NCBI GenBank assembly: GCA_947460595.1
Contig: CANHGS010000014.1
Coordinates: 1 to 64,000 of the forward strand
DNA length: 64,000 bases
From: Bacteroidota bacterium
GTDB lineage: Bacteria > Bacteroidota > Bacteroidia > Chitinophagales > Chitinophagaceae
Direction of reading: 5' to 3'
The first letter of the stretch is position 1. Every line of letters starts with the position of its first letter. A model generated the notes under the pieces. It was given only the letters and a program-made list of their open reading frames with translations. It had not been told where the DNA came from and did no database searches. The position numbers were made by a program, and so were the translations under genes. Of the stretch, positions 38,135 to 60,337 are shown piece after piece.

Positions 38135-39703
38135 ATGAATTACAAAAACCTACTTGCGCTAATCTTAATCCCCGTTTTGTATGTTTCCTGTAAAGAAAAG
38201 CAAAGCACTGTTACCCTGACTCTGGAAATCATCCAACCCGCTGTCAAAAACCTAGTCAGTGCCTACGGCCCAACCAGAATGGTACGCAGCGTAAAACAAG
38301 CAAAGAACGGAGACATTTTAATAGCTTCTTACACTGGCCTATGGCGATATGATGGAAAAATGTTCACCAATATCACCACCACCATTGCTGTTCCCAGCAT
38401 TTGGGATGTATTGGAAGACAAGAAGGGAAATCTTTGGATAGGCACCAAGGATTCAGGTCTCTATTATTATGATGGAAAATCCTTTCTGCATTATACCACC
38501 CGTCAGGGACTTCCCTCTAATATGGCGCTGCATTTATATGAAGACAGGGCTGGTAATATTTGGACAAATGCCGGAGGCGCCACCCGTTTTGACGGAAAAT
38601 CCTTTAAAACCTATACCACCAAAGACGGGCTTCCCGATAATGCTGTAAATACATTCATGGAAGATAAAGACGGTAAAATATGGATAGGCACTAGGGGAGA
38701 TGCTTGTTATTTTGATGGCAAAACCTTTATTATTTTAAAAAACAACGAAGGCAAACCATTTCACAATGTCTGGTCAATAGTAGAAGATCAAAAAGGTACT
38801 ATTTGGTTTGGTGCAGAAATCATCAAAGAAATTAAAAACAGTACCTATTATATGGATGGAGCTCCCGGCCTATGGCGATATGATGGGACTAACTATGCCA
38901 AAGTATCGGAAATGAGCGCATCTGCAATTATGCAAGACAAGCAAGGAAATATCTGGACTACCGGTGCTGAAAAAAATATTGGAATGAGCGCTTGGAAACT
39001 GTTGCGTTATGATCAAAGCACATTAAACAATGAAAAGCCTGCTGTAACTGAAATGGCATCCATAGATAAAATGCTTTGCAGAATTATTGAAGCTACAGAT
39101 GGCAGCATTTGGTTTGGATCCATCAACGGAGTTTACCGGTTTGATGGAAAAGACCTCACAAACTTTCAAGGAAAACAAGAACAGGTTTACAATATTGATC
39201 AAAAGGAAAGCCGAATTACCTGGAAGGGCTCTATGAAAATTTCTGCAGCAGAAAAGCATGTAGGTTATGTATCTATCTCAAAAGGAGAGCTTTGGGTAGA
39301 AAATAATCGCTTAGTTGGTGGAGCCGCTACCATAGACATGAACGCTATGGAATTTGCAGATAAGAATGATAAAAATAACCCCATTCAACACTTACAATCG
39401 GCTGACTATTTTGATGTAAAAAGATTCCCATTTGCTACTATTGAAATTTCACAAGTAGATTCCTTAACTGATAAAACAGTTCAAATTACCGGTTACTTAA
39501 CCATTAAAACAGTTTCACGATTGGTGAGTTTTCCAGCAACCATTGAAGTTAAAAGTGGAATATTGAACGCCAATGCTAAACTCACTATTGATAGAACCAA
39601 TTGGGGGATCAATTTTCAATCTGGAAAGTTTTATAAAAAAATGGCGGATCAAATTGTTTCTGATGAGATTGATTTTGAAATTAAAATAGTGGCAAAGAAA
39701 TAA
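38135..39703 (+). CDS. Lipoprotein fusing reg_prop beta-propeller and YceI domain
   Basis: This 522-residue protein has a lipobox (LIPVLYVSC, Cys near residue 19). It continues with about seven propeller repeats of the two-component-regulator type (IWIGTKDSGLYYYDGKSF, IWIGTRGDACYFDGKTF, IWFGSINGVYRFDGKDL) spanning residues 55-345. From about residue 355 a complete YceI lipocalin-like domain follows (WKGSMKISAAEKHVGYVSISKG...MNAMEF...HLQSADYFDVKRFPFATIEI...LTIDRTNWGINFQSG). Reg_prop domains usually form the sensor of hybrid two-component systems; YceI binds isoprenoid-type lipids. The combination is unusual and should be anchored in a periplasm-facing leaflet. Confidence 0.85.
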   Translation: MNYKNLLALILIPVLYVSCKEKQSTVTLTLEIIQPAVKNLVSAYGPTRMVRSVKQAKNGDILIASYTGLWRYDGKMFTNITTTIAVPSIWDVLEDKKGNLWIGTKDSGLYYYDGKSFLHYTTRQGLPSNMALHLYEDRAGNIWTNAGGATRFDGKSFKTYTTKDGLPDNAVNTFMEDKDGKIWIGTRGDACYFDGKTFIILKNNEGKPFHNVWSIVEDQKGTIWFGAEIIKEIKNSTYYMDGAPGLWRYDGTNYAKVSEMSASAIMQDKQGNIWTTGAEKNIGMSAWKLLRYDQSTLNNEKPAVTEMASIDKMLCRIIEATDGSIWFGSINGVYRFDGKDLTNFQGKQEQVYNIDQKESRITWKGSMKISAAEKHVGYVSISKGELWVENNRLVGGAATIDMNAMEFADKNDKNNPIQHLQSADYFDVKRFPFATIEISQVDSLTDKTVQITGYLTIKTVSRLVSFPATIEVKSGILNANAKLTIDRTNWGINFQSGKFYKKMADQIVSDEIDFEIKIVAKK

Positions 39704-41594: not shown

Positions 41595-44500
41595 ATGAAA
41601 AAAACAGCCAAAACAAGCTCACAGCTTCTATTAGCCGCCGCACTGTTGACCCTATCGGCGCAGGCCCAACATCAAAACCGTGATTATCCCATACAGCCCG
41701 TGACTTTTAACCATGTTCATGTAAATGATCAATTCTGGGCGCCACGCATAGATATTAATGCAGACATTACCATTCCTTATGTATTGCAGAAATGCCGCGA
41801 ACAGGGACGCATTGACAATTTCTTAAAAGCTGCCGGCAAAAAGGATCCAACCAATATTACTGAATACCCTTTTGACGATACTGATATCTATAAGCTTATT
41901 GAAGGTGCTTCCTATTCCTTACAAGTAAAACCTAATCCTTCACTGGAGCGCAGCATTGATACCCTCATAGGCATCATTGCCGACGCCCAAGAACCAGATG
42001 GGTATCTATATACGTTTAGAACCATGAAACCCCAGAAGCTACATCCTTGGGTAGGAGCTAAGCGTTGGGAAAAAGATCCTGACCTAAGCCACGAATTATA
42101 CAATAGCGGACATTTATACGAAGCCGCAACGGCACACTATATTTCTACTGGTAAGAAATCCTTATTGAATATTGCCATCAAGAATGCGGATTTGCTTGTC
42201 AAAGATTTTGGCCCAGGCAAAGCCGATTATTTTCCTGGTCACCAAGTAGTAGAAATGGGGCTGGCGCGATTGTATAGAGTAACAGGCAAACAAGCCTACC
42301 TAGATTTAGCCAAATTCTTTTTAGATACTAGGGGCAAGGGTGCAGGGAAATATTCAGAATACAACCAATCACAAAAGCCCGTAACTCAGCAACACGAAGC
42401 CGTTGGACACGCAGTACGTGCAGCCTATATGTATACAGGCATGGCCGATGTGGCAGCCTTAACAGGCGATGCTTCTTATATAAAAGCCATTGACGATATC
42501 TGGACAGATGTAGTGAGTAAGAAAATGTACCTAACTGGAGGTATTGGCGCTACCGGTGCTGGTGAAGCATTTGGCGCGGCTTATCACTTACCCAATATGA
42601 GTGCTTATGCAGAAACCTGTGCATCCATTGCCAACGTGTACTGGAATAACCGTATGTTTTTATTGCATGGCGATGCTAGTTATATAGACGTGATGGAGCG
42701 GGTCATGTACAATGGATTATTATCTGGTGTTTCTCAAAACGGCACCAAATTTTTTTATCCCAATCCGCTAGCTTCCATGGGGCAGCACCAACGCAGTGCT
42801 TGGTTTGGCTGTGCTTGTTGCATTTCTAATATGACCAGGTTTATGCCATCGATTCCAGGTTATGTATATGCCCAAAATGCCAATAACCTCTATGTCAATC
42901 TCTTTATGTCTAACCAGTCAGACATCAAACTGCCTGCAGGTAAACTGAGTATTGCCCAAGAAACGGCTTATCCTTGGAAGGGTAAAGTGACCTTAAAAAT
43001 TGATCCTGCAAAATCAATGGATTTTGTATTGCGTGTGCGTATTCCGGGTTGGGCCAGACAGGAAGCAGTGCCCAGTAATTTGTATCGCTTTGCGGATACC
43101 AAATTGGTAACTATTCCCATTAGCATCAATGGCAAAACCCAAGAATACATTGTTGAAAAAGGCTACGCTGTTTTTAGCCGCACTTGGAAAAAAGGTGATC
43201 TAGTAGAAATAGATCTTCCCATGGAAGTAGAAAAAGTATTGGCCAATGAAAATGTAAAAGAAGATAAGGGCAGATTTGCTTTTCAAAAAGGGCCACTGGT
43301 CTATTGCTTAGAAGGACCAGATAACCAAGGTGGTACGGTGCAGAATATTGTGATGAGTAAAGACGCTTCCATCTCTGAAAACTATGAGCAACAATTACTC
43401 AATGGTGTCTTGGTATTAAGTGGGCAAGGGGTTGCTACCAAAAGACAGGTAGCTAGTACAGAATTGCAAACAACACCTCTACAAGCCAAAGCCATTCCTT
43501 ACTATGCATGGAATAATAGGGAAGCTTCTGAAATGCAGGTCTGGATTCCTTTTGAAACATCCGCTGCAAGACCTAGCCCAGCTGCTACCATTGCTTCTAA
43601 AAGTGTAGTTTCCGCTTCTATTAACAACAAAAGAATGTTGTCTGCTTTGAATGACCAATTTGAACCGGCTTCTTCTGAAGATAAATCTGGTTTGTATATG
43701 CATTGGTGGCCCAAGAAAGACACCAAGGAATGGATTCAATATGATTTTGACAAAGCTTATACCGTGTCTGAATCCAAAGTCTATTGGTATGACGATGCGC
43801 CTTTTGGTGGTTGCAGAATTCCAGCAAACTACACCATCTTATATAAGCAGGGGGATGCTTGGGTTCCTGTTAAAAATTTGACACCCTATACACCAGTAAA
43901 AGATACATACGATGTGCTGAAATTTGAACCTGTTAGTACCACAGCTATTCGTATGGAAATTCAACTACCCAAAGATCATGCAACAGGTGTACACGAGTGG
44001 ATTATTCAAAATCCGCGACCTGAAAGAAAGCAGGAAGAATTACCAAAGTTTGCAGAGAACTATCCCCAATTATACAATGCCTTTTTAACCAGTGTGGCTG
44101 ATGTTAAACTGAGTACAAATCTTGGTGTTTTACCAACCCTTCCTAGTTATTTGAATGGAACTTATTCGGGGATTCAACAAGGCCCTCCAGTAAGGGTTAT
44201 TTGGCCTGCACCTAGTGATAATTCATCTGTACTTAAACCCGGAACTTATTCCATTGAAGGTCGCGTTCCCGGTACCACATTAAAACCAAAAGCCATTGTT
44301 ACGGTTAAAGCAAGTTTTGATCAGATAGCATCGCCGAAGGCAAAATTGGTAACTTTTAATTTGAACCAGGTTTCTTTAAATACCAATACACTTGGTCAAC
44401 AAACAAAATTTACGGAGAACAGGGATAAGTTTGTTCAAACCTTAGCCAAGACTGACCCCAATGCTTTTTTATACATGTTTCGTCATGCTTTTGGCCAGCC

Positions 44501-46301
44501 ACAACCTTCTGGTACCAAGGCTTTAGGCGTTTGGGATAGCAAGGATACCAAATTAAGAGGTCATGCAACGGGTCATTATCTATCTGCATTAGCTCAAGCT
44601 TATGCTGGCACAGGATATGACAAAAACCTTCAGCAGATATTTGCTCAAAAAATGGATTACATGGTTAATGCCTTGTATGATTTGGCGCAATTATCAGGCA
44701 AATCAAAAGAAGCAGACGGCCCCTTTGTAGCCGATGCTAGATGGGTACCCATGGGTCCTGGTAAGAAAAGCTATGACTCTGATATTAGCGATACAGGTAT
44801 TAGAAACGATTATTGGAATTGGGGCAAGGGCTTTATCAGCGCCTATCCGCCAGACCAATTTATTATGTTAGAAGCGGGTGCTAAATATGGTACCCAACCC
44901 ACTCAAATCTGGGCGCCTTATTATACCCTACACAAAATCTTGGCTGGCTTAATTGACATCTATGAAGTGAGAGGCAACAAAAAAGCTTTGGATATTGCCA
45001 CAGGGATGAGCAATTGGGTCTATGCCCGTTTGAGTCAAGTGCCCACCAATACTAGGATCAGCATGTGGAATACTTATATAGCCGGAGAATTTGGAGGCAT
45101 GAATGAAGTAATGGCGCATTTATACCGCATTACCAAAGAGCCTAATTATCTAAAAACCGCACAATTGTTTGACAATATTAAAGTATTCTTTGGCGATACC
45201 ACACATAACAGTGGGCTAGCCAAAAATGTTGACTTGTTTAGGGGTTTACACGCCAACCAACATATTCCTCAAATGGTGGGTAGTATGGAAACCTATCGCG
45301 TTTCTATTAATCCTGAATATTACCAAGTGGCTAATAATTTTTGGCACAAAGCTGTTTACGATTATTCCTATAGCATTGGGGGAGTAGCTGGTGCTAGTAA
45401 TCCCAATAACCCAGAATGTTTTACCAGTGAGCCTGGTACCCTCTATGCAAATGGTCTTTCTGCGGGTGGACAAAATGAAACATGCGCCACTTATAATATG
45501 CTCAAATTAACAAGTGATATATTTCAGTATGACCAGCGAGGTGAACTGATGGATTATTATGAACGCGCTTTATACAATGATATCCTGGCTTCTGTTGCAG
45601 AACATAGTCCTGCTAACACATACCATATTCCGCTCAGACCTGGATCTGAAAAAGATTTTGGCAACCCCAATATGGATGGTTTTACCTGCTGCAATGGAAC
45701 TGCCATGGAGAGCAATACCAAGTTTCAAAATAGCATTTATTTTAAATCTATTGATGGCAAAGCCTTGTACGTGAATCTCTTTATTCCATCTACTTTAAAT
45801 TGGAGTAATAAGAAGGTAACCGTTGAACAGAAAACTAATTTTCCAATAGAAGACAATACCCAACTCTTGATTAAGGGTAGTGGTAGTTTTAATCTATTGG
45901 TTCGCGTACCGGGATGGGCTACCAAGGGATTCATGATAACCATTAATGGCATAGCTCAGGCATTAGAAGCAATTCCTGGAACCTATCTGACAATTGGTCG
46001 TAAATGGAAAGACGGTGACATCATTGAACTAAAAATGCCATTTCAATTTCATTTAGAACCTTTGATGGATCAGCAAAATATTGCCAGTCTATTTTATGGC
46101 CCCATTTTGTTGGCAGCTCAAGAAACAGAGGCTAGAAAGGATTTTCGCAAAATTACGCTCAACGCCAATGACTTGGGTAAGACCATTAAAGGAGATGCCC
46201 AACAATTGCAGTTTAGTATTGACAACGTTCCATTCAAACCTTTTTACGATACTTTTGGGAGGCATTCGGTGTATCTAGACGTTGCCTTAACAAAGGAATA
46301 A
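41595..46301 (+). CDS. Giant two-domain beta-L-arabinofuranosidase-type hydrolase (GH127-like + GH146-like)
   Basis: This 1568-residue secreted protein starts with a signal peptide (LLLAAALLTLSAQA). Residues ~30-650 form one DUF1680 (alpha/alpha)6-barrel with its beta domains. Residues ~670-810 look like a discoidin-type module (WWPKKDTKEWIQYDF...), followed by an Ig-like linker (VRVIWPAPSDNSS). Residues ~920-1560 are a second, distinct DUF1680 catalytic domain. Both retain the zinc-thiolate machinery of HypBA1-type enzymes: a Glu 16 residues before ExC (GEAFG...ETC; SEPGT...ETC) and a later CC (GCACC near 405; FTCCNG near 1364). The predicted role is removing arabinofuranose from plant polysaccharides. 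Confidence 0.88.
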   Translation: MKKTAKTSSQLLLAAALLTLSAQAQHQNRDYPIQPVTFNHVHVNDQFWAPRIDINADITIPYVLQKCREQGRIDNFLKAAGKKDPTNITEYPFDDTDIYKLIEGASYSLQVKPNPSLERSIDTLIGIIADAQEPDGYLYTFRTMKPQKLHPWVGAKRWEKDPDLSHELYNSGHLYEAATAHYISTGKKSLLNIAIKNADLLVKDFGPGKADYFPGHQVVEMGLARLYRVTGKQAYLDLAKFFLDTRGKGAGKYSEYNQSQKPVTQQHEAVGHAVRAAYMYTGMADVAALTGDASYIKAIDDIWTDVVSKKMYLTGGIGATGAGEAFGAAYHLPNMSAYAETCASIANVYWNNRMFLLHGDASYIDVMERVMYNGLLSGVSQNGTKFFYPNPLASMGQHQRSAWFGCACCISNMTRFMPSIPGYVYAQNANNLYVNLFMSNQSDIKLPAGKLSIAQETAYPWKGKVTLKIDPAKSMDFVLRVRIPGWARQEAVPSNLYRFADTKLVTIPISINGKTQEYIVEKGYAVFSRTWKKGDLVEIDLPMEVEKVLANENVKEDKGRFAFQKGPLVYCLEGPDNQGGTVQNIVMSKDASISENYEQQLLNGVLVLSGQGVATKRQVASTELQTTPLQAKAIPYYAWNNREASEMQVWIPFETSAARPSPAATIASKSVVSASINNKRMLSALNDQFEPASSEDKSGLYMHWWPKKDTKEWIQYDFDKAYTVSESKVYWYDDAPFGGCRIPANYTILYKQGDAWVPVKNLTPYTPVKDTYDVLKFEPVSTTAIRMEIQLPKDHATGVHEWIIQNPRPERKQEELPKFAENYPQLYNAFLTSVADVKLSTNLGVLPTLPSYLNGTYSGIQQGPPVRVIWPAPSDNSSVLKPGTYSIEGRVPGTTLKPKAIVTVKASFDQIASPKAKLVTFNLNQVSLNTNTLGQQTKFTENRDKFVQTLAKTDPNAFLYMFRHAFGQPQPSGTKALGVWDSKDTKLRGHATGHYLSALAQAYAGTGYDKNLQQIFAQKMDYMVNALYDLAQLSGKSKEADGPFVADARWVPMGPGKKSYDSDISDTGIRNDYWNWGKGFISAYPPDQFIMLEAGAKYGTQPTQIWAPYYTLHKILAGLIDIYEVRGNKKALDIATGMSNWVYARLSQVPTNTRISMWNTYIAGEFGGMNEVMAHLYRITKEPNYLKTAQLFDNIKVFFGDTTHNSGLAKNVDLFRGLHANQHIPQMVGSMETYRVSINPEYYQVANNFWHKAVYDYSYSIGGVAGASNPNNPECFTSEPGTLYANGLSAGGQNETCATYNMLKLTSDIFQYDQRGELMDYYERALYNDILASVAEHSPANTYHIPLRPGSEKDFGNPNMDGFTCCNGTAMESNTKFQNSIYFKSIDGKALYVNLFIPSTLNWSNKKVTVEQKTNFPIEDNTQLLIKGSGSFNLLVRVPGWATKGFMITINGIAQALEAIPGTYLTIGRKWKDGDIIELKMPFQFHLEPLMDQQNIASLFYGPILLAAQETEARKDFRKITLNANDLGKTIKGDAQQLQFSIDNVPFKPFYDTFGRHSVYLDVALTKE

Positions 46302-52957: not shown

Positions 52958-53028
52958 ATTCAGGATGAAACAGGATGCCAAGGCCGTCATCTGCCAGTAA
53001 TTTACAGGTTGATTGCAAAATAGCTTTT

Positions 53029-55332
53029 ATGAGAAAATCCTGTTTGTTGCTGGTACTGATCGGCTTTCTAACCTTACCAAGTTTTGCCCAAAGAACCATT
53101 ACTGATTTTGACTTGGATTGGAAATTTATCCAATCAGATATTACTGGCGCAGAAGCAACTGTATTTAATGATGCTGCTTGGAGATCTCTAAGGGTACCAC
53201 ATGACTGGATGATAGAAGGGCCCTATGACCGCAACAATCCCACCAATAGAGGTGGGGGTTATTTGCCTTCTGGGATTGGTTGGTATAGAAAAACATTCAC
53301 TATTCCAGCTTCAGAATCCAATAAAAAAATCAGCATTGAATTTGATGGCGTCATGGCCAATTCCGAGGTTTGGATCAATGGTAAATCCTTGGGAAAAAGA
53401 CCTTATGGTTATATCAGTTTTGCTTTTGACCTAACACCCTATTTGAACTTTGGCAAACCCAATACCATTGCAGTTAGAGCAGATAATTTAGTACAACCTG
53501 CATCGCGCTATTATACTGGTGCAGGCATTTATAGACATACCAGACTTGTTAGTACTAACCCCTCTCATTTTGATCATTGGGGTGTGTTTGTAACCACGCC
53601 AGAAGCATCGGCCCAGCAGGCCTTAGTTAAACTCTCCTTGAAAATTATTCAGGAAACCAAACCGCAGTCAGGGTTGTGGGCTCAAACGGTTTTATTAGAT
53701 GCTAATCAACAACAGGTGGCTATTTCAGAGAAAACCAATCTCTCTACACTCAGCATCCAAACAGTTTTTCATCAAATCAAATTAAACCAACCCAAATTAT
53801 GGAGTCTGGAAAATACCCATCTCTACACTGCGGTAACCAAACTGTATTTAAAAAACCAATTGATTGACCAGCAGTCAACAGCTTTTGGTGTTCGTGATGC
53901 CAAATTTGAAGCAGCTACTGGATTCTGGCTGAATGGCAAGAATATCAAACTCAAAGGAGTTTGTTTGCACCACGACGGAGGAGCCGTGGGTGCTGCTGTA
54001 CCATTGGGTGTTTGGGAAGAAAGATTTAAACTATTAAAGCAAGCAGGGGTAAATGCCATTAGAACTTCTCATAATCCAGTGGCTCCAGAGTTTTTAGACC
54101 TCTGTGACAAAATGGGATTCCTAGTTATGGATGAAACATTTGATACTTGGACTGCCCCCAAACACAATGGTGAAAAGGGTTATAATCTCATCTTTAGAGA
54201 ATGGTGGGAAAGAGATACTAGAGATATGGTGCTGCGCGATAGAAATCACCCATCCATTGTTATTTACAGTGTGGGTAATGAAATTCACGATGACTTAAGC
54301 TATCCCAAAGGCTATGAACTATATAAGGCTCAACAGGACAAAATCCATGAATTTGATAGTACTAGGCCGGTAACGATGGCGCTATTTAGACCAGCCAATT
54401 CTAAAGTTTATTTTAGTGGCTATGCCGAGCATATGGAAGTAGTGGGACAGAATTATCGTGAGAAAGAATTGATTGTAGCACATGAAAATAATCCACACTG
54501 GAAAGTGATTGGTACTGAAAATACCCATGTATTAGACCAGTGGCTAGCCCTGCGTGACAAGCCTTATATGGCTGGACAATTTCTTTGGACGGGCATAGAT
54601 TATTTGGGTGAAGAAGACTGGCCTGCAGTAACTAATAGCCAAGGCTTATTTGATAGAGCCGGTAATTGGAAACAGCAAAGTTTGCAAAGACAAAGCTGGT
54701 GGTTAGATCAACCGGTAGTGCACTTGATGCGAAAATCTGATAATGCGGGAGCAGGTGTTTGGGTCAATAATTGGACGCCCACAGACTTTGATACTTATGA
54801 TAATGCCAAGCTCAATATTTATACCAATTGTGAAGAAGTAGAACTTTTTTTGAATGGCAAGTCTCAGGGCAAAAAAATCAAGAATGCCAATGATGCTCCT
54901 ATTGATTGGGAATTAGCTTTTGAGAAAGGGACCATTGAAGTGGTTGGATTCAACAAAGGAAAAGAAGCTGTAAGAGAAACATTGAAAACCGCTGGCAAAC
55001 CTGCTCAATTAAAGATTCAACTAAGTAAATCCAATTTGAAAAATCATTGGGATGATGTGGTGATGGCACAAGTTCAAGTTTTGGATGAAGCTGGTTTGCC
55101 CTGCCCTAATGCTGACAACCTGATTCAATTTGAACTTACGGGCAATGGACAAATTGCTGGCGTTGATAATGGAGACATTAATAGCCATGAATCCTACCAA
55201 GGCAAACAAAGAACTGCTTATAAGGGTAAAACTTTGGTTATCTTAAAAGCAACTGCTTCAAAAGGAAGCATTGGGTTTACGGCTAGTTCAAATGGATTAA
55301 TGGCAGCAAGCGCCGTTATAACCATCAATTAG
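53029..55332 (+). CDS. Secreted glycoside hydrolase family 2 (beta-galactosidase-like)
   Basis: The protein has 767 residues from ATG 53029, which gives a signal peptide (KSCLLLVLIGFLTLPSFAQ); the track start 18 codons earlier does not. The GH2 layout is visible: a sugar-binding jelly roll (LRVPHDWMIEGPYD...GIGWYRKTF), an Ig-like domain, and a TIM barrel with INAIRTSHNPVAPEFLDLCDKMGFLVMDE. The acid/base Glu is in SVGNEIHDD and the likely nucleophile in VIGTENTHVLD, followed by MAGQFLWTGIDYLGE. Extra C-terminal beta domains follow. Beta-galactosidase is the best guess; other GH2 specificities are possible. Confidence 0.88.
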   Translation: MRKSCLLLVLIGFLTLPSFAQRTITDFDLDWKFIQSDITGAEATVFNDAAWRSLRVPHDWMIEGPYDRNNPTNRGGGYLPSGIGWYRKTFTIPASESNKKISIEFDGVMANSEVWINGKSLGKRPYGYISFAFDLTPYLNFGKPNTIAVRADNLVQPASRYYTGAGIYRHTRLVSTNPSHFDHWGVFVTTPEASAQQALVKLSLKIIQETKPQSGLWAQTVLLDANQQQVAISEKTNLSTLSIQTVFHQIKLNQPKLWSLENTHLYTAVTKLYLKNQLIDQQSTAFGVRDAKFEAATGFWLNGKNIKLKGVCLHHDGGAVGAAVPLGVWEERFKLLKQAGVNAIRTSHNPVAPEFLDLCDKMGFLVMDETFDTWTAPKHNGEKGYNLIFREWWERDTRDMVLRDRNHPSIVIYSVGNEIHDDLSYPKGYELYKAQQDKIHEFDSTRPVTMALFRPANSKVYFSGYAEHMEVVGQNYREKELIVAHENNPHWKVIGTENTHVLDQWLALRDKPYMAGQFLWTGIDYLGEEDWPAVTNSQGLFDRAGNWKQQSLQRQSWWLDQPVVHLMRKSDNAGAGVWVNNWTPTDFDTYDNAKLNIYTNCEEVELFLNGKSQGKKIKNANDAPIDWELAFEKGTIEVVGFNKGKEAVRETLKTAGKPAQLKIQLSKSNLKNHWDDVVMAQVQVLDEAGLPCPNADNLIQFELTGNGQIAGVDNGDINSHESYQGKQRTAYKGKTLVILKATASKGSIGFTASSNGLMAASAVITIN

Positions 55333-55428
55333 TCCTTGTTTTTATTCTAAACTAAAGATTCCTAATACTGGCAACAAATGACCATTAAAATGTGTCCATT
55401 TTCACAAATTGAACTGAAAAAGGATTAA

Positions 55429-56460
55429 CTAATTTCTACTTGTAGACTTTCTTACCTGTAATTCTGTGGGAATAGACACCTGTTTAAAACTGGTAACTGG
55501 GCGTTTACTCTCTACTAGTTCTAACAGTAATTCCATGGCCTGTTTACCCATTTCAAAAGCAGGTTGTTTTACGGTAGTCAATCCAGGATTAAAAAGTTGG
55601 GGGGCGCTAAAATTGCTAAACCCTGCAAAAGCTAATTGATCAGGTATTTTAATTCCTTTTTGTTGCAAATAATCAAAGCTGGACAAACTAATCAAATCGG
55701 ATGCCGCAAAAATTGCATCTGGCGGATTATCCAATTCCAGTAAGGTGGACAATTGTTTTTCAACTTCCTTGGTATCAACACCACCCTGTTCGCAATACCT
55801 AATCAGATGTTGATCAAATGGAATTCCTGCTAGTTTTAGTGCATCGGTATAACCAGTTAAACGTGCTTTGGTAGTGAAAATTTCTTCTGAACTGGTAATA
55901 TGTGCTATGCGTTTGAAGCCCTGATCAATTAAATGTTTGGTCAAGTCAAATGCGCCCTGGTGATTGTCTGCAATCACAGTATGTGTTTCTAGTTCATTGG
56001 TAATCCTATCAAAAAAAACAATGGGTGTTCCAGATTCCTGAATGGATTTAAACTGAGAAAAATTGGTGGTCTGTGCAGAAATAGAAACTAATAAACCATC
56101 AATGGAACGCCAGGTCAGTTGATCAAGGTTATTCTTTTCCTTTTCAAAATTCTCCATACTCTGGGTAATAATTACGTGATAATCTTTAGCAGATGCTACA
56201 GATTCAATACCAGTAATTACTTCAGCAAAAAAGACCTTTGAAACAGAACTAAGAATGACACCAATACTTCTTGTCTTTTGGTTTTTAAGACCCTGAGCCA
56301 TCAAGTTGGGATGATAATTATGCGCTTTGGCGTAAGCTTTTACCCTTTTCTTGGTCTCTTCACCAATTTGATAACTATCTTTTAAGGCACGAGAAATAGT
56401 GGAATGAGACAGTTTGAGTGCCTTAGCAATATCCTTAATGGTAATAGATGCTTTACTCAT
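55429..56460 (-). CDS. LacI family transcriptional regulator
   Basis: This 343-residue regulator has an N-terminal helix-turn-helix and hinge (ITIKDIAKALKLSHSTISRALKDSYQIGEETKKRV, then YHPNLMAQGLKNQKTRSIGVIL) and a periplasmic-binding-protein-like effector domain (DGLLVSISAQTTNF, PPDAIFAASDLIS). It overlaps the upstream AraC gene by ATGA, so the two are translationally coupled. Placed divergent from xylBA and convergent with the GH2 gene, it probably controls local pentose or galactoside genes. Confidence 0.93.
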   Translation of the reverse strand: MSKASITIKDIAKALKLSHSTISRALKDSYQIGEETKKRVKAYAKAHNYHPNLMAQGLKNQKTRSIGVILSSVSKVFFAEVITGIESVASAKDYHVIITQSMENFEKEKNNLDQLTWRSIDGLLVSISAQTTNFSQFKSIQESGTPIVFFDRITNELETHTVIADNHQGAFDLTKHLIDQGFKRIAHITSSEEIFTTKARLTGYTDALKLAGIPFDQHLIRYCEQGGVDTKEVEKQLSTLLELDNPPDAIFAASDLISLSSFDYLQQKGIKIPDQLAFAGFSNFSAPQLFNPGLTTVKQPAFEMGKQAMELLLELVESKRPVTSFKQVSIPTELQVRKSTSRN

Positions 56461-57293
56461 ATAAATTGTTTGCGATAGGCCGATGGAGCCATTCCTTTAA
56501 TCTGTTTGAATTGTTTGCTAAAATGGGCCCAACTATTGTATCCGCTATTATAACAGATCTCCAAAATAGGCTTTTCAGTATCGTTTAACAATTTACAAGC
56601 ATGCCCAATGCGCAATTCTTGTAAGAAATTAAAATAAGTCTTCTTAATATTTTTCTTAAAAAACCTACAAAATCCAGGAACACTCATTTCTGCAACAGTT
56701 GCAATTTCTGTTAAACTAATGGGTTCTAAAAAATGCTTGAAGGAATAAGCAATAATCTTTTCTATAGCTGGATTGGTTTTTTCATTGGCAATATTAAAAT
56801 TGCTACTTAATACCTTGTATTCTTTTGAAATTGCTAAGTCTAAAATGGTTTGCAACAGCAGGAGCATTCGCTGAAAACCTTGGGCTGTAGCAATCTTATC
56901 TAAATTAAGGGGTATAGTTTGCAATAATTTCTCCTCCAATGCAATAGCATCTTTTCTTTGTAAAAATTGTTGCATGCCCTTCCATTCTGGAAAACCATCA
57001 AATGCTTCTAACAAAATAGCTGGTTTGCATTGTAAAACTTTGGCGGCACCTATTTGTTTAGTATCGGCTTTGCGGAACCAGTGGGGTAGGTTACCAGCAA
57101 TAAAGAAAGTATCGCCAGGAGCATATGTACCTACATAATCCCCAATCATGGCCGTACCCGTACCTTCTATTATACTAATCAGTTCAAACTCTTCATGGGT
57201 ATGCCAACTGGTTTCAAACTCTGGCGTACGATAAGTTCTACAAGCAAATGAATGCTGCGGATCCACATGTACTTTCTGTAAAAGGGTTTGCAT
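56457..57293 (-). CDS. AraC family transcriptional regulator
   Basis: This 278-residue protein has an N-terminal cupin sensor (SWHTHEEFELISIIEGTGTAMIGDY...FIAGNLPHWFRKAD) and a C-terminal double HTH (LTEIATVAEMSVPGFCRFFKKNIKKTYFNFLQELRIGHACKLL and the second CYNSGYNSWAHFSKQFKQIKGMAPSAYRKQF). It is the first gene of an AraC-LacI operon with a 4-bp ATGA overlap, and divergent (138 bp) from xylB. A xylose- or arabinose-responsive role is likely from context. The -7 box TATATTTG is 31 nt upstream. Confidence 0.92.
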   Translation of the reverse strand: MQTLLQKVHVDPQHSFACRTYRTPEFETSWHTHEEFELISIIEGTGTAMIGDYVGTYAPGDTFFIAGNLPHWFRKADTKQIGAAKVLQCKPAILLEAFDGFPEWKGMQQFLQRKDAIALEEKLLQTIPLNLDKIATAQGFQRMLLLLQTILDLAISKEYKVLSSNFNIANEKTNPAIEKIIAYSFKHFLEPISLTEIATVAEMSVPGFCRFFKKNIKKTYFNFLQELRIGHACKLLNDTEKPILEICYNSGYNSWAHFSKQFKQIKGMAPSAYRKQFI

Positions 57294-57324
57294 AAAACAG
57301 CCGTTATCTTATCCTTAAATCTAA

Positions 57325-57332
57325 CAAATATA
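57325..57332 (-). promoter_or_regulatory. -7 promoter box (TATATTTG) for the AraC-LacI operon
   Basis: This exact TAnnTTTG match lies on the minus strand, 31 nt before the AraC ATG. On the plus strand a one-mismatch box (CATATTTG, 57353-57360) could serve xylB, so the two divergent promoters would nearly abut. Confidence 0.45.
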
Positions 57333-57431
57333 ACTGAATAGGGTTAAGATAGCATATTTGATGTCAAAAATAGCAGTTGTAATTAGCGCTGGAAAGGTGA
57401 AATTTTACTGAATTGTTAAAGCCATAGCACC

Positions 57432-58910
57432 ATGTTATTATTAGGATTAGATATAGGAACTTCTTCCATTAAAGTAGCCATTGTAGACGCTCAAACCCAG
57501 CAAACCATTGTTACTGTTCAGTATCCGGATAAGGAAACACCCATTATTTCTTTACAAAAAGGTTGGGCGGAACAATCACCCAATGATTGGTGGGAACACG
57601 CCAAACTGGCCATAAAAAAAGCACATGCCACCAATTTGTACCATGCTTCCGAGATTGGAGCTATTGGTATTGCTTATCAAATGCATGGTCTAGTATGTGT
57701 AGACAAGCAAGGCCATTTGCTGCGCGATAGTATTATCTGGTGTGATAGCCGAGCTGTTGCATTGGGTAATCAAGCATTTGACAGCATTGGTCATGAACAA
57801 GCCCTTTCTCATTTACTCAATTCACCGGGTAATTTTACTGCATCCAAACTGGCTTGGGTTAAACAACAGGAACCTGAAGTTTATAGAAAGATTGCACAAG
57901 TGATGTTACCGGGAGATTATATAGCCTTACAATTAACCGGCAATGCTACCACTAGCATTGCTTCTTTGAGTGAAGGCATTTTTTGGGATTTTCAAACCAA
58001 GTCTTTATCTAAAGACGTATTCCAATATTATGGTCTTGATAAAACCCATATTCCAGCTATTCAAAATGTTTTTTCTGAACATGGGCTGGTATCTGCTTCA
58101 GTAGCAGTAGAATTGGGTTTAAAAGCAGGTATTCCTGTCTCCTACAAAGCAGGAGACCAACCCAATAATGCTTTATCCTTAAATGTTTTGGAGCCGGGTG
58201 AAGTTGCTGCCACGGCAGGAACTTCCGGAGTTATTTATGGTGTTACTGATCAATTACGCTATGACCAACAATCAAGGGTCAATAGTTTTGCACACGTAAA
58301 TCATACCAGCGCAAATCCAAGAATTGGCGTATTACTTTGCATTAATGGTACGGGTATTTTGAATAGTTGGATCAAACAAATTGCAGGTGCAGGAATGTCT
58401 TACGCCGCAATGAACCAAGCTGCTACTAGTGTTGCACCAGGATCCGATGGGTTGTATTTATTACCCTTTGGAAATGGAGCAGAAAGAATGCTAGAAAACA
58501 AAACCATTGACGCGCATATGAGTCATATTAACTTGAACAAACATGGTGCAGCCCATTTATTCCGTGCGGCCCAAGAAGGCATAGCATTTGCCTTTAGGTA
58601 CGGACTAGATATTATGCGTTCTAATGGTATGCAACCCGCAGTGATTAGAGCAGGTAAAGCCAATATGTTCTTGAGTAATGTTTTTATCAAAGCTTTTGTG
58701 AATGCTACCAATACCAAAGTAGAATTGCATGACTGTGATGGTAGTGTAGGTGCCGCTATTGGAGCAGGCATTGGAGCAGGTGTTTTCAAAAACGCACAGG
58801 AGGCTTTTAGTTTGAAAAAAGCTTTGGAAACTATTGAACCTGATCAAGCATCTGCCTATGATCAATTATACGGTGAATGGTTGCAAGTGCTAAACAAACA
58901 ATTACATTAA
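57432..58910 (+). CDS. xylB: Xylulokinase
   Basis: This FGGY kinase phosphorylates D-xylulose to xylulose 5-phosphate. The 492-residue sequence has the N-terminal phosphate loop LGLDIGTSSIKVAIVD, the catalytic region IGIAYQMHGLVCVD and IIWCDSRA, the GDQPNNALSLN loop and the adenosine-site EVAATAGTSGVIYG. The C-terminal signature is GKANMFLSNVFIKAFVNATNTKVELHDCDGSVGAAIGAG. Xylose isomerase follows 95 nt downstream, which fixes the substrate. Control is probably by the divergent AraC-LacI pair. Confidence 0.95.
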   Translation: MLLLGLDIGTSSIKVAIVDAQTQQTIVTVQYPDKETPIISLQKGWAEQSPNDWWEHAKLAIKKAHATNLYHASEIGAIGIAYQMHGLVCVDKQGHLLRDSIIWCDSRAVALGNQAFDSIGHEQALSHLLNSPGNFTASKLAWVKQQEPEVYRKIAQVMLPGDYIALQLTGNATTSIASLSEGIFWDFQTKSLSKDVFQYYGLDKTHIPAIQNVFSEHGLVSASVAVELGLKAGIPVSYKAGDQPNNALSLNVLEPGEVAATAGTSGVIYGVTDQLRYDQQSRVNSFAHVNHTSANPRIGVLLCINGTGILNSWIKQIAGAGMSYAAMNQAATSVAPGSDGLYLLPFGNGAERMLENKTIDAHMSHINLNKHGAAHLFRAAQEGIAFAFRYGLDIMRSNGMQPAVIRAGKANMFLSNVFIKAFVNATNTKVELHDCDGSVGAAIGAGIGAGVFKNAQEAFSLKKALETIEPDQASAYDQLYGEWLQVLNKQLH

Positions 58911-58956
58911 AGTTTTATTTTAATTATTTTTTCATCCATTTTCACAACCCCTTTCA

Positions 58957-58982
58957 TTTTTGAATTTTGACTTTTGAATTTT
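58957..58982 (+). repeat. TTTTGAM heptamer tract upstream of xylA
   Basis: The xylB-xylA spacer contains TTTTGAA-TTTTGAC-TTTTGAA-TTTT, 23 nt before the xylA ATG. The EVE gene has the related tract in the same sense. Confidence 0.65.
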
Positions 58983-59005
58983 ATAACATTCTAAATTAAA
59001 CAATC

Positions 59006-60337
59006 ATGAGTATCGTACTTGGAGACAAATCCTATTTTAAATCTGTTGGCCAGATCAATTATGAAGGCCCTGATTCCGATAACCCATTGGCATTTCAATA
59101 TTACAAGGCTTCACAAGTGGTAGCAGGAAAAACCATGCAAGAATGGTTGCGTTTTGCTTGTGCTTACTGGCATAGTTTTGTAGGAAATGGAGGAGATCCA
59201 TTTGGTGAACCCACCCATATTTATCCATGGAATGCTGCTTCCGATGCCATTGGTAGGGCAAAAGACAAGGCCGATGCCGCTTTTGAATTCATGACCAAAT
59301 TAGGCCTGCCTTATTACTGTTTTCACGATGTTGATGTTGTAGAATATACCAATGACATTGCAGACAATGAAAAACGCTTAGCTACTATTACTGCTTACTT
59401 AAAAGAAAAACAAGCAGCTAGTGGGGTTAAATTACTTTGGGGCACTGCAAACCTATTTTCCAACAGGCGTTATATGAATGGTGCATCTACCAATCCTGAT
59501 TTTAGTGTATTGGCGCATGGTGGTGCTCAAGTAAAAGCCGCTCTGGATGCTACTATAGCACTAGGAGGGGAGAACTATGTATTCTGGGGTGGAAGAGAAG
59601 GTTATATGACTTTACTCAACACCAATATGAAACGCGAGAAAGAACATTTGGCTCGTTTTTTACAAACTGCTAGAGACTATGCACGCAAACAAGGTTTTAA
59701 AGGAACCTTTTTTATTGAACCAAAACCGTGTGAGCCAAGCAAACACCAATATGATTATGACGTTGAAACCGTTATTGGTTTTTTGCGTCAATATGATTTG
59801 CTCAATGACTTTAAATTAAATATAGAAGTAAACCATGCAACCCTAGCAGGTCATACCTTCCAACACGAATTACAAGTGGCTGCAGATGCTGGTTTATTGG
59901 GCAGTATGGATGCCAACCGTGGTGACTATCAAAATGGATGGGATACCGATCAATTTCCTACCAATATCAATGAATTAGTAGAAGCTATGTTGATTATCTT
60001 GGACGCTGGTGGTTTTGCAGGTGGTGGTATTAACTTTGACGCCAAACGCCGCAGAAATAGTACCGATGAACAAGACCTGTTTTATGCCCATATTGGAGGA
60101 ATGGATGCATTTGCCCGTTCTTTAATTATTGCAGACAATATTTTACAAAAATCGGACTACCAAAAAATCCGTTCAGACCGATATGCCTCTTTTGATAGCG
60201 GTAAGGGTAAAGATTTTGAAAATGGCTTATTGAGTTTGGAAGACCTCCGCAATCTGGCAGTAGCTGCTGGTGAACCAGCAGTAATTAGTGGAAAGCAGGA
60301 GTACTTAGAGAATTTAATTAATAGGTACATCAAGTAA
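59006..60337 (+). CDS. xylA: Xylose isomerase
   Basis: This converts D-xylose to D-xylulose with two divalent metals. It is 443 residues, the class II length, starting [30 protein letters not shown]. Catalytic His and Asp lie in [12 protein letters not shown], metal ligands in [36 protein letters not shown] and [20 protein letters not shown], with [10 protein letters not shown] near the end. Together with xylB it forms the isomerase pathway. GTGAAGA repeats and a strong terminator follow the stop. Confidence 0.97.

Follow-up and report, generated by a model that had tools for sequence, protein, structure and literature searches.

The β-L-arabinofuranosidases, which release a rare sugar (β-L-arabinofuranose), are few among enzymes that work through a zinc-bound cysteine, and come mostly from gut bacteria and from one plant pathogen. 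Among the closest described systems is the HypBA2 (GH121)/HypBA1/HypAA set of Bifidobacterium longum and Xanthomonas euvesicatoria, which acts on hydroxyproline arabinosides, the presumed substrate of the protein reported here, and shares its cysteine-glycosidase chemistry (PMC6085000, PMC10850190). Those enzymes are separate proteins and include a GH121 β-arabinobiosidase, whereas our protein carries two exo-acting families in one chain. With regard to linkage, the GH127 enzyme HypBA1 cuts Araf-β1,2-Ara, and Araf-β1-Hyp is the target of two GH146 enzymes, XeHypBA1 and Bll4HypBA1 (PMC10850190, PMC6085000). Two catalytic domains in one secreted protein are also known from the CE15-GH8 multicatalytic enzyme of Bacteroidota (PMC8417218); unlike in CE15-GH8, the domains of our protein share clan GH-P and one Pfam family and differ in GH family.

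Our analysis concerns one gene in the window, which is the whole 64,000-nucleotide stretch of DNA analysed here (genome G000, from a bacterium of the Chitinophagaceae). The first-pass annotation had described a single 1568-residue polypeptide with two DUF1680 catalytic domains. Both points were confirmed, since the open reading frame occupies exactly 41595-46301 (+) and Pfam PF07944 was found at residues ~40-421 and ~938-1378 (Table 1). Between the two catalytic domains, Pfam recognised an F5/8-type C domain (~703-793) and a Big_4 domain (835-893). The protein would thus join a GH127 and a GH146 retaining β-L-arabinofuranosidase, each of the zinc-thiolate (cysteine-nucleophile) type, through F5/8-type C and Ig-like domains. 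Its N-terminus, judged by eye, resembles a signal peptide, and the protein is probably secreted.

Table 1 Position of the fused gene, its domains and its predicted active-site residues in the window.
Feature	Position	Strand	Basis
Whole fused ORF, 1568 aa (P0001)	41595..46301	+	Single frame without interruption
Putative signal peptide, residues 1-25	41595..41669	+	Translation inspected by eye
GH127 catalytic (alpha/alpha)6 domain, residues 40-421	41712..42857	+	Pfam PF07944; 6ex6 BT3674 743 bits
N half acid/base E324 (HypBA1 E322)	42564..42566	+	Alignment
N half Zn ligands E340, C342 (HypBA1 E338, C340)	42612..42620	+	Alignment
N half nucleophile C408, Zn ligand C409 (HypBA1 C417, C418)	42816..42821	+	Alignment
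GH127 C-terminal domain, residues 545-652	43227..43550	+	Pfam PF20737
F5/8 type C (galactose-binding-like) domain, residues 703-793	43701..43973	+	Pfam PF22633, 31.6 bits (cutoff, 27.8)
Junction and linker, residues 807-834	44013..44096	+	Comparison with stand-alone genes
Big_4 Ig-like domain, residues 835-893	44097..44273	+	Pfam PF07532, 23.8 bits (cutoff, 22.1)
GH146-side catalytic domain, residues 938-1378	44406..45728	+	Pfam PF07944 243 bits; 5opj 224 bits; Foldseek; tree
C half E1165 (Bll3HypBA1 E578, essential; PMC10850190)	45087..45089	+	Alignment
C half probable acid/base E1274, E-C-F motif	45414..45416	+	Invariant 40/40; analogy with E694 (E-H-F) of Bll3HypBA1
E1279, acid/base candidate of the first-pass annotation, rejected	45429..45431	+	Gln in 33/40 aligned sequences
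C half Zn ligands E1295, C1297 (Bll3HypBA1 E723, C725)	45477..45485	+	Alignment
C half nucleophile C1365, Zn ligand C1366 (Bll3HypBA1 C804, C805)	45687..45692	+	Alignment
Beta-sandwich 'GH127 middle' domain of C half, residues 1391-1482	45765..46040	+	Pfam PF20736

The two halves belong to different glycoside hydrolase families. When searched against PDB chains (phmmer), the N half best matched BT3674 (6ex6; 743 bits) and the C half best matched the GH146 enzyme BT0349 (5opj; 224 bits, with 72 bits to 6ex6). An AlphaFold model of residues 660-1568 (mean pLDDT 62.5, moderate) was used as the Foldseek query, and its top matches were all GH146 (6yqh, E 1.6e-25); this model supports the fold, but its quality near the active site does not allow distances to be measured, and the N-half model (mean pLDDT 36.5) was set aside. 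In a maximum-likelihood tree of 46 domains with six solved references, GH127 and GH146 were separated with 100/100 support and the two halves fell on opposite sides. Specifically, the N half was placed in the BT3674 clade, among GH127-F5/8 genes from the same bacterial family that form a clade, and the C half in a distinct clade on the GH146 side that consists of LamG-Big_4-GH146 proteins, although the position of the references is unsure in fine detail because of long branches among them (a warning of the tree tool). The structure matches and the tree agree with the earlier reading of a GH127-like N half and a GH146-like C half. The local identity of only ~25-28% between the halves, together with their places on either side of the split, likewise upholds its view of a fusion as opposed to a tandem duplication.

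Compared with the solved GH127 enzymes BT3674 (6ex6), Ara127N (4qjy) and HypBA1 (3wkw), the N half has the same domains and the same E322/E338/C340/C417/C418 set; it is distinct from all three in carrying an F5/8 domain and in being fused to GH146. The C half shares the Zn Cys3-Glu set, the W/Y/E/N residues and the fold with the GH146 enzymes BT0349 (5opj, 6yqh) and Bll3HypBA1 (8k7x), but it branches separately, next to the clades of characterised enzymes, has an insertion before the presumed acid/base and has lost its LamG domain in the fusion. We also considered whether the N half could be an aceric acid hydrolase of the BT1003 type, which was rejected (NCBIfam NF049879, 551 bits vs a cut-off of 950). 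RG-II is not favoured as a substrate, given that the paralogue of the window genome that groups with BT1003 is a separate protein. This GH127 protein (L002:1333-3357, G000 contig C24) has, like BT1003 itself, a Gln where other GH127 enzymes have the acid/base Glu.

To the extent that alignments can tell, the active sites of both halves appear well preserved, with all four zinc ligands and the nucleophile intact in each, as well as most of the residues that contact the substrate. In the N half, the predicted acid/base E324 and the ETC Glu E340 match HypBA1 E322 and E338, in agreement with the 16-residue spacing that had been noted, and the HypBA1 substrate residues H142, Y145, H194 and R273 are kept. 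In the C half, W429, Y526, E578, H628 and N630 of Bll3HypBA1 are kept; mutating most of these and of the zinc and nucleophile residues abolishes or weakens that enzyme (PMC10850190).

For the C half, the first-pass annotation was right about the ETC motif and the Cys pair, both of which are borne out by the GH146 alignment, but not about the acid/base. It had placed this residue 16 positions before the ETC Glu as well, at E1279, in a column that is not conserved (Gln in 33/40 aligned sequences and Glu in 7/40, with the fusion proteins among the seven). The only invariant acidic residue within 1255-1294 is E1274 (40/40), which lies 21 residues ahead of E1295. Bll3HypBA1 uses E694, the Glu of an E-H-F motif, as acid/base (PMC10850190), and E1274 is most likely its counterpart. 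The C-clade insertion just ahead of E1274 keeps it from lining up exactly with known acid/base residues, and AlphaFold confidence is low around this position. Since E1279 is unconserved and the distance from acid/base to ETC Glu is not fixed in GH146 (by counting along the sequences, 29 residues in Bll3HypBA1 and 19 in BT0349), the equal spacing in the two halves is a coincidence.

These comparisons suggest that both halves are catalytically active. It can be argued that only one half is an active glycosidase and that the other is retained as a binding or structural module, in view of the insertion before the presumed acid/base in the C clade and of the Q that this clade has in place of T at Bll3HypBA1 T631. 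We regard this as improbable, because the zinc ligands, nucleophile and most substrate contacts are kept in both halves and because dN/dS between fused orthologues is low in both (GH127, 0.06-0.07; GH146, 0.07-0.09). Both catalytic domains of the fusion are under strong purifying selection, and the Big_4 domain is less constrained.

A search for the same fusion in other genomes had been proposed, and it was successful. We scanned 85,000 species genomes with an alignment of the C part and kept the best 80 of 356 relatives, of which four were fused (L083-L086) and 76 were LamG-Big_4-GH146 proteins, mostly of ~1000-1050 aa. The fusion is thus present in five genomes, including that of the window, always with the same junction. 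One of them is Chitinophagaceae bacterium BSSC1 (L084), and the three complete copies measure 1568, 1568 and 1569 aa (1568 in L084 and 1569 in L085). Across the Chitinophagaceae, the C part was detected in 27/399 genomes and was fused in two only, the window genome and G089. Taken together, these data support well a genuine and conserved GH127 and GH146 fusion, as read from the sequences. The enzyme families are known and their arrangement in one protein is new; the phrases GH127-GH146 and GH146-GH127 were not found in the literature searched, an absence that is weak evidence.

Elsewhere, the halves are separate genes encoding a ~800-aa GH127-F5/8 protein and a ~1030-aa LamG-Big_4-GH146 protein. 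The boundary is sharp: homology to the stand-alone GH127-F5/8 proteins stops at residue ~806, where these have their own stop codon, and similarity with the stand-alone GH146 proteins sets in at residue ~811. The fusion most probably arose by linking the end of a GH127-F5/8 gene, at the stop codon, with the Big_4-GH146 portion of a LamG-Big_4-GH146 gene broken in the LamG/Big_4 linker, so that LamG was lost and GH127-F5/8 took its place. The two source genes did not adjoin each other at any of the loci examined, and the sole GH127 neighbour of a stand-alone C gene (L099) is of another GH127 type. Because nearly every relative has the two halves as separate genes, a merger of neighbouring genes by a sequencing or assembly error could also be suspected. 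The chance of this is negligible, as the identical junction in five genomes refutes an error and as the source genes do not adjoin in the relatives examined. A lone remnant of the C gene (~127 aa, 68% identity) was seen in a species of the same genus (G236, L053:5919-6299, -).

A second fusion, in reversed order, was identified in genome G148. Its 1592-aa ORF (L035:1525-6303, +) has the order GH146-DUF4986-DUF6805-GH127-F5/8. In the tree, the GH127-F5/8 clade of the window protein also includes the GH127 half of this ORF, but the GH146 half falls in another GH146 clade; two origins of the GH146 partner are required by these well-supported branches. In several relatives, the G148-type GH146 gene adjoins the GH127-F5/8 gene, which makes adjacency followed by gene fusion the simple route in this case. 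Other long open frames (G205, G253, G227, G052, G613, G661) were rejected as fusions because they are adjacent genes with stop codons between them. G148 is the only true independent fusion among the candidate long frames.

The genomic neighbourhoods of the unfused genes point to hydroxyproline (Hyp). In 13/33 genomes (9/24 genera), no more than 20 kb separated the unfused GH127-F5/8 gene from the only gene of the hydroxyproline epimerase family (PF05544) in the genome; ~0.26 genomes would be expected. Clusters L175, L176 and L177 bring together GH127-F5/8, GH146, Hyp epimerase, a DAO-type oxidase and a DapA-like enzyme, and a row at L168 consists of GH51, GH127-F5/8, GH146, an S9 peptidase and DUF885. 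For the C gene, an operon of Flagellimonas (L138) combines LamG-Big_4-GH146 with a 4-hydroxyproline epimerase (592 bits vs a cutoff of 376), an oxidase, an aldehyde dehydrogenase and an S9 peptidase; an epimerase within 7 kb of a stand-alone GH146 was seen at 7/76 loci only, mostly in Flavobacteriaceae. No description of loci combining GH127-F5/8 and/or GH146 with GH51, peptidases and hydroxyproline catabolism was found in the literature searched.

A canonical GH146 gene lies within ~9 kb of GH127-F5/8 in none of 12 genomes with the C gene vs 11/20 without it (Fisher p 0.0016; G015, G024, G049 and G111 left out, and related genomes not independent), which is no more than suggestive of the C gene replacing a neighbouring GH146. 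A DUF5695 protein (937 aa) recurs near LamG-Big_4-GH146 at 19/76 stand-alone loci (e.g., L101:9457-12270).

In the two genomes checked, the fused gene lies away from the hydroxyproline genes (on different contigs in G000 and ~180 kb apart in G089), and no SusC/SusD family was present among the neighbours scanned in the window (34 to 63 kb). As a result, the substrate is deduced from the unfused relatives. The window genome does encode a Hyp catabolic cluster (L174), two GH51-type genes and an L-arabinose isomerase, all on other contigs than the fusion.

On balance, we lean slightly towards a bifunctional enzyme that trims Hyp-linked β-arabinosides of extensin, a plant cell-wall protein. Its target would be the consecutive β-arabinofuranosides on hydroxyproline-rich glycoproteins, as in extensin-type Araf-β1,2-Araf-β1,2-Araf-β1-Hyp. 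Cleavage of the outer β1,2-linked residues may fall to the GH127 half and that of the innermost residue, linked to Hyp, to the GH146 half, after which peptidases and hydroxyproline catabolism would deal with the peptide or Hyp that is left. Both the substrate and this order of action are deductions from sequence comparisons. The first-pass annotation had proposed consecutive linkages of the same side chain. This is plausible, and it can be narrowed to Hyp-linked arabinosides through the Hyp gene context of unfused relatives and the characterised GH127 and GH146 precedents (PMC10850190, PMC6085000).

Several points count against this reading. Besides the inexact alignment of E1274, the distance of the fused gene from hydroxyproline genes and the small share of stand-alone GH146 loci with an epimerase nearby (7/76), the N half's nearest solved relative, BT3674, comes from a gut Bacteroides, and the LamG-bearing Bll3HypBA1, with which the unfused C gene shares its LamG and Ig-like modules, is β1,3-specific and hardly active on Hyp arabinosides (PMC10850190). 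This raises an alternative, in which both halves are active on a pectic or arabinogalactan side chain (arabinan, AGP, RG-I) and the GH146 half takes terminal β1,3-Araf like Bll3HypBA1. It would fit with the nearest GH146 structure, BT0349, which acts on arabinan-derived oligosaccharides (PMC10850190), and with the GH51, GH43-F5/8-LamG and SusC/SusD-like genes beside some unfused copies. However, the unfused genes are enriched beside hydroxyproline catabolism and peptidases, Bll3HypBA1 branches with BT0349 and away from the C clade in the tree, and no galactanase was recognised in the sample of neighbour proteins scanned. We consider a pectic or arabinogalactan substrate rather unlikely.

Returning to Hyp-linked arabinosides of extensin, a broader proposal can be put forward only tentatively, at clearly less than an even chance. 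One chain might strip extensin-type Hyp β-arabinofuranosides without GH121, by way of an exo-acting β1,2 GH127 and a Hyp-Araf GH146. Alongside it, Bacteroidota may hold an undescribed class of Hyp-arabinoside loci (GH127-F5/8, GH146, GH51, peptidases and Hyp catabolism) in which the two β-arabinofuranosidases were fused at least twice, in opposite orders. The recurrent GH127/GH146 fusion, with both partners repeatedly near Hyp catabolism, points to a way in which Bacteroidota of the environment may recover the amino acid of extensins as well as their sugar. For two enzyme clades about which little has been characterised, it also offers a substrate that can be tested directly.

Two further features of the window were observed. 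The region 52975-60337 encodes a GH2 β-galactosidase-like enzyme, LacI and AraC regulators, an FGGY kinase (best match, xylulokinase) and a xylose isomerase, and is probably a xylose or galactoside utilisation locus. At 38135-39703, a 522-aa protein shows an unusual pairing of two-component-regulator propeller repeats with a YceI-like domain.
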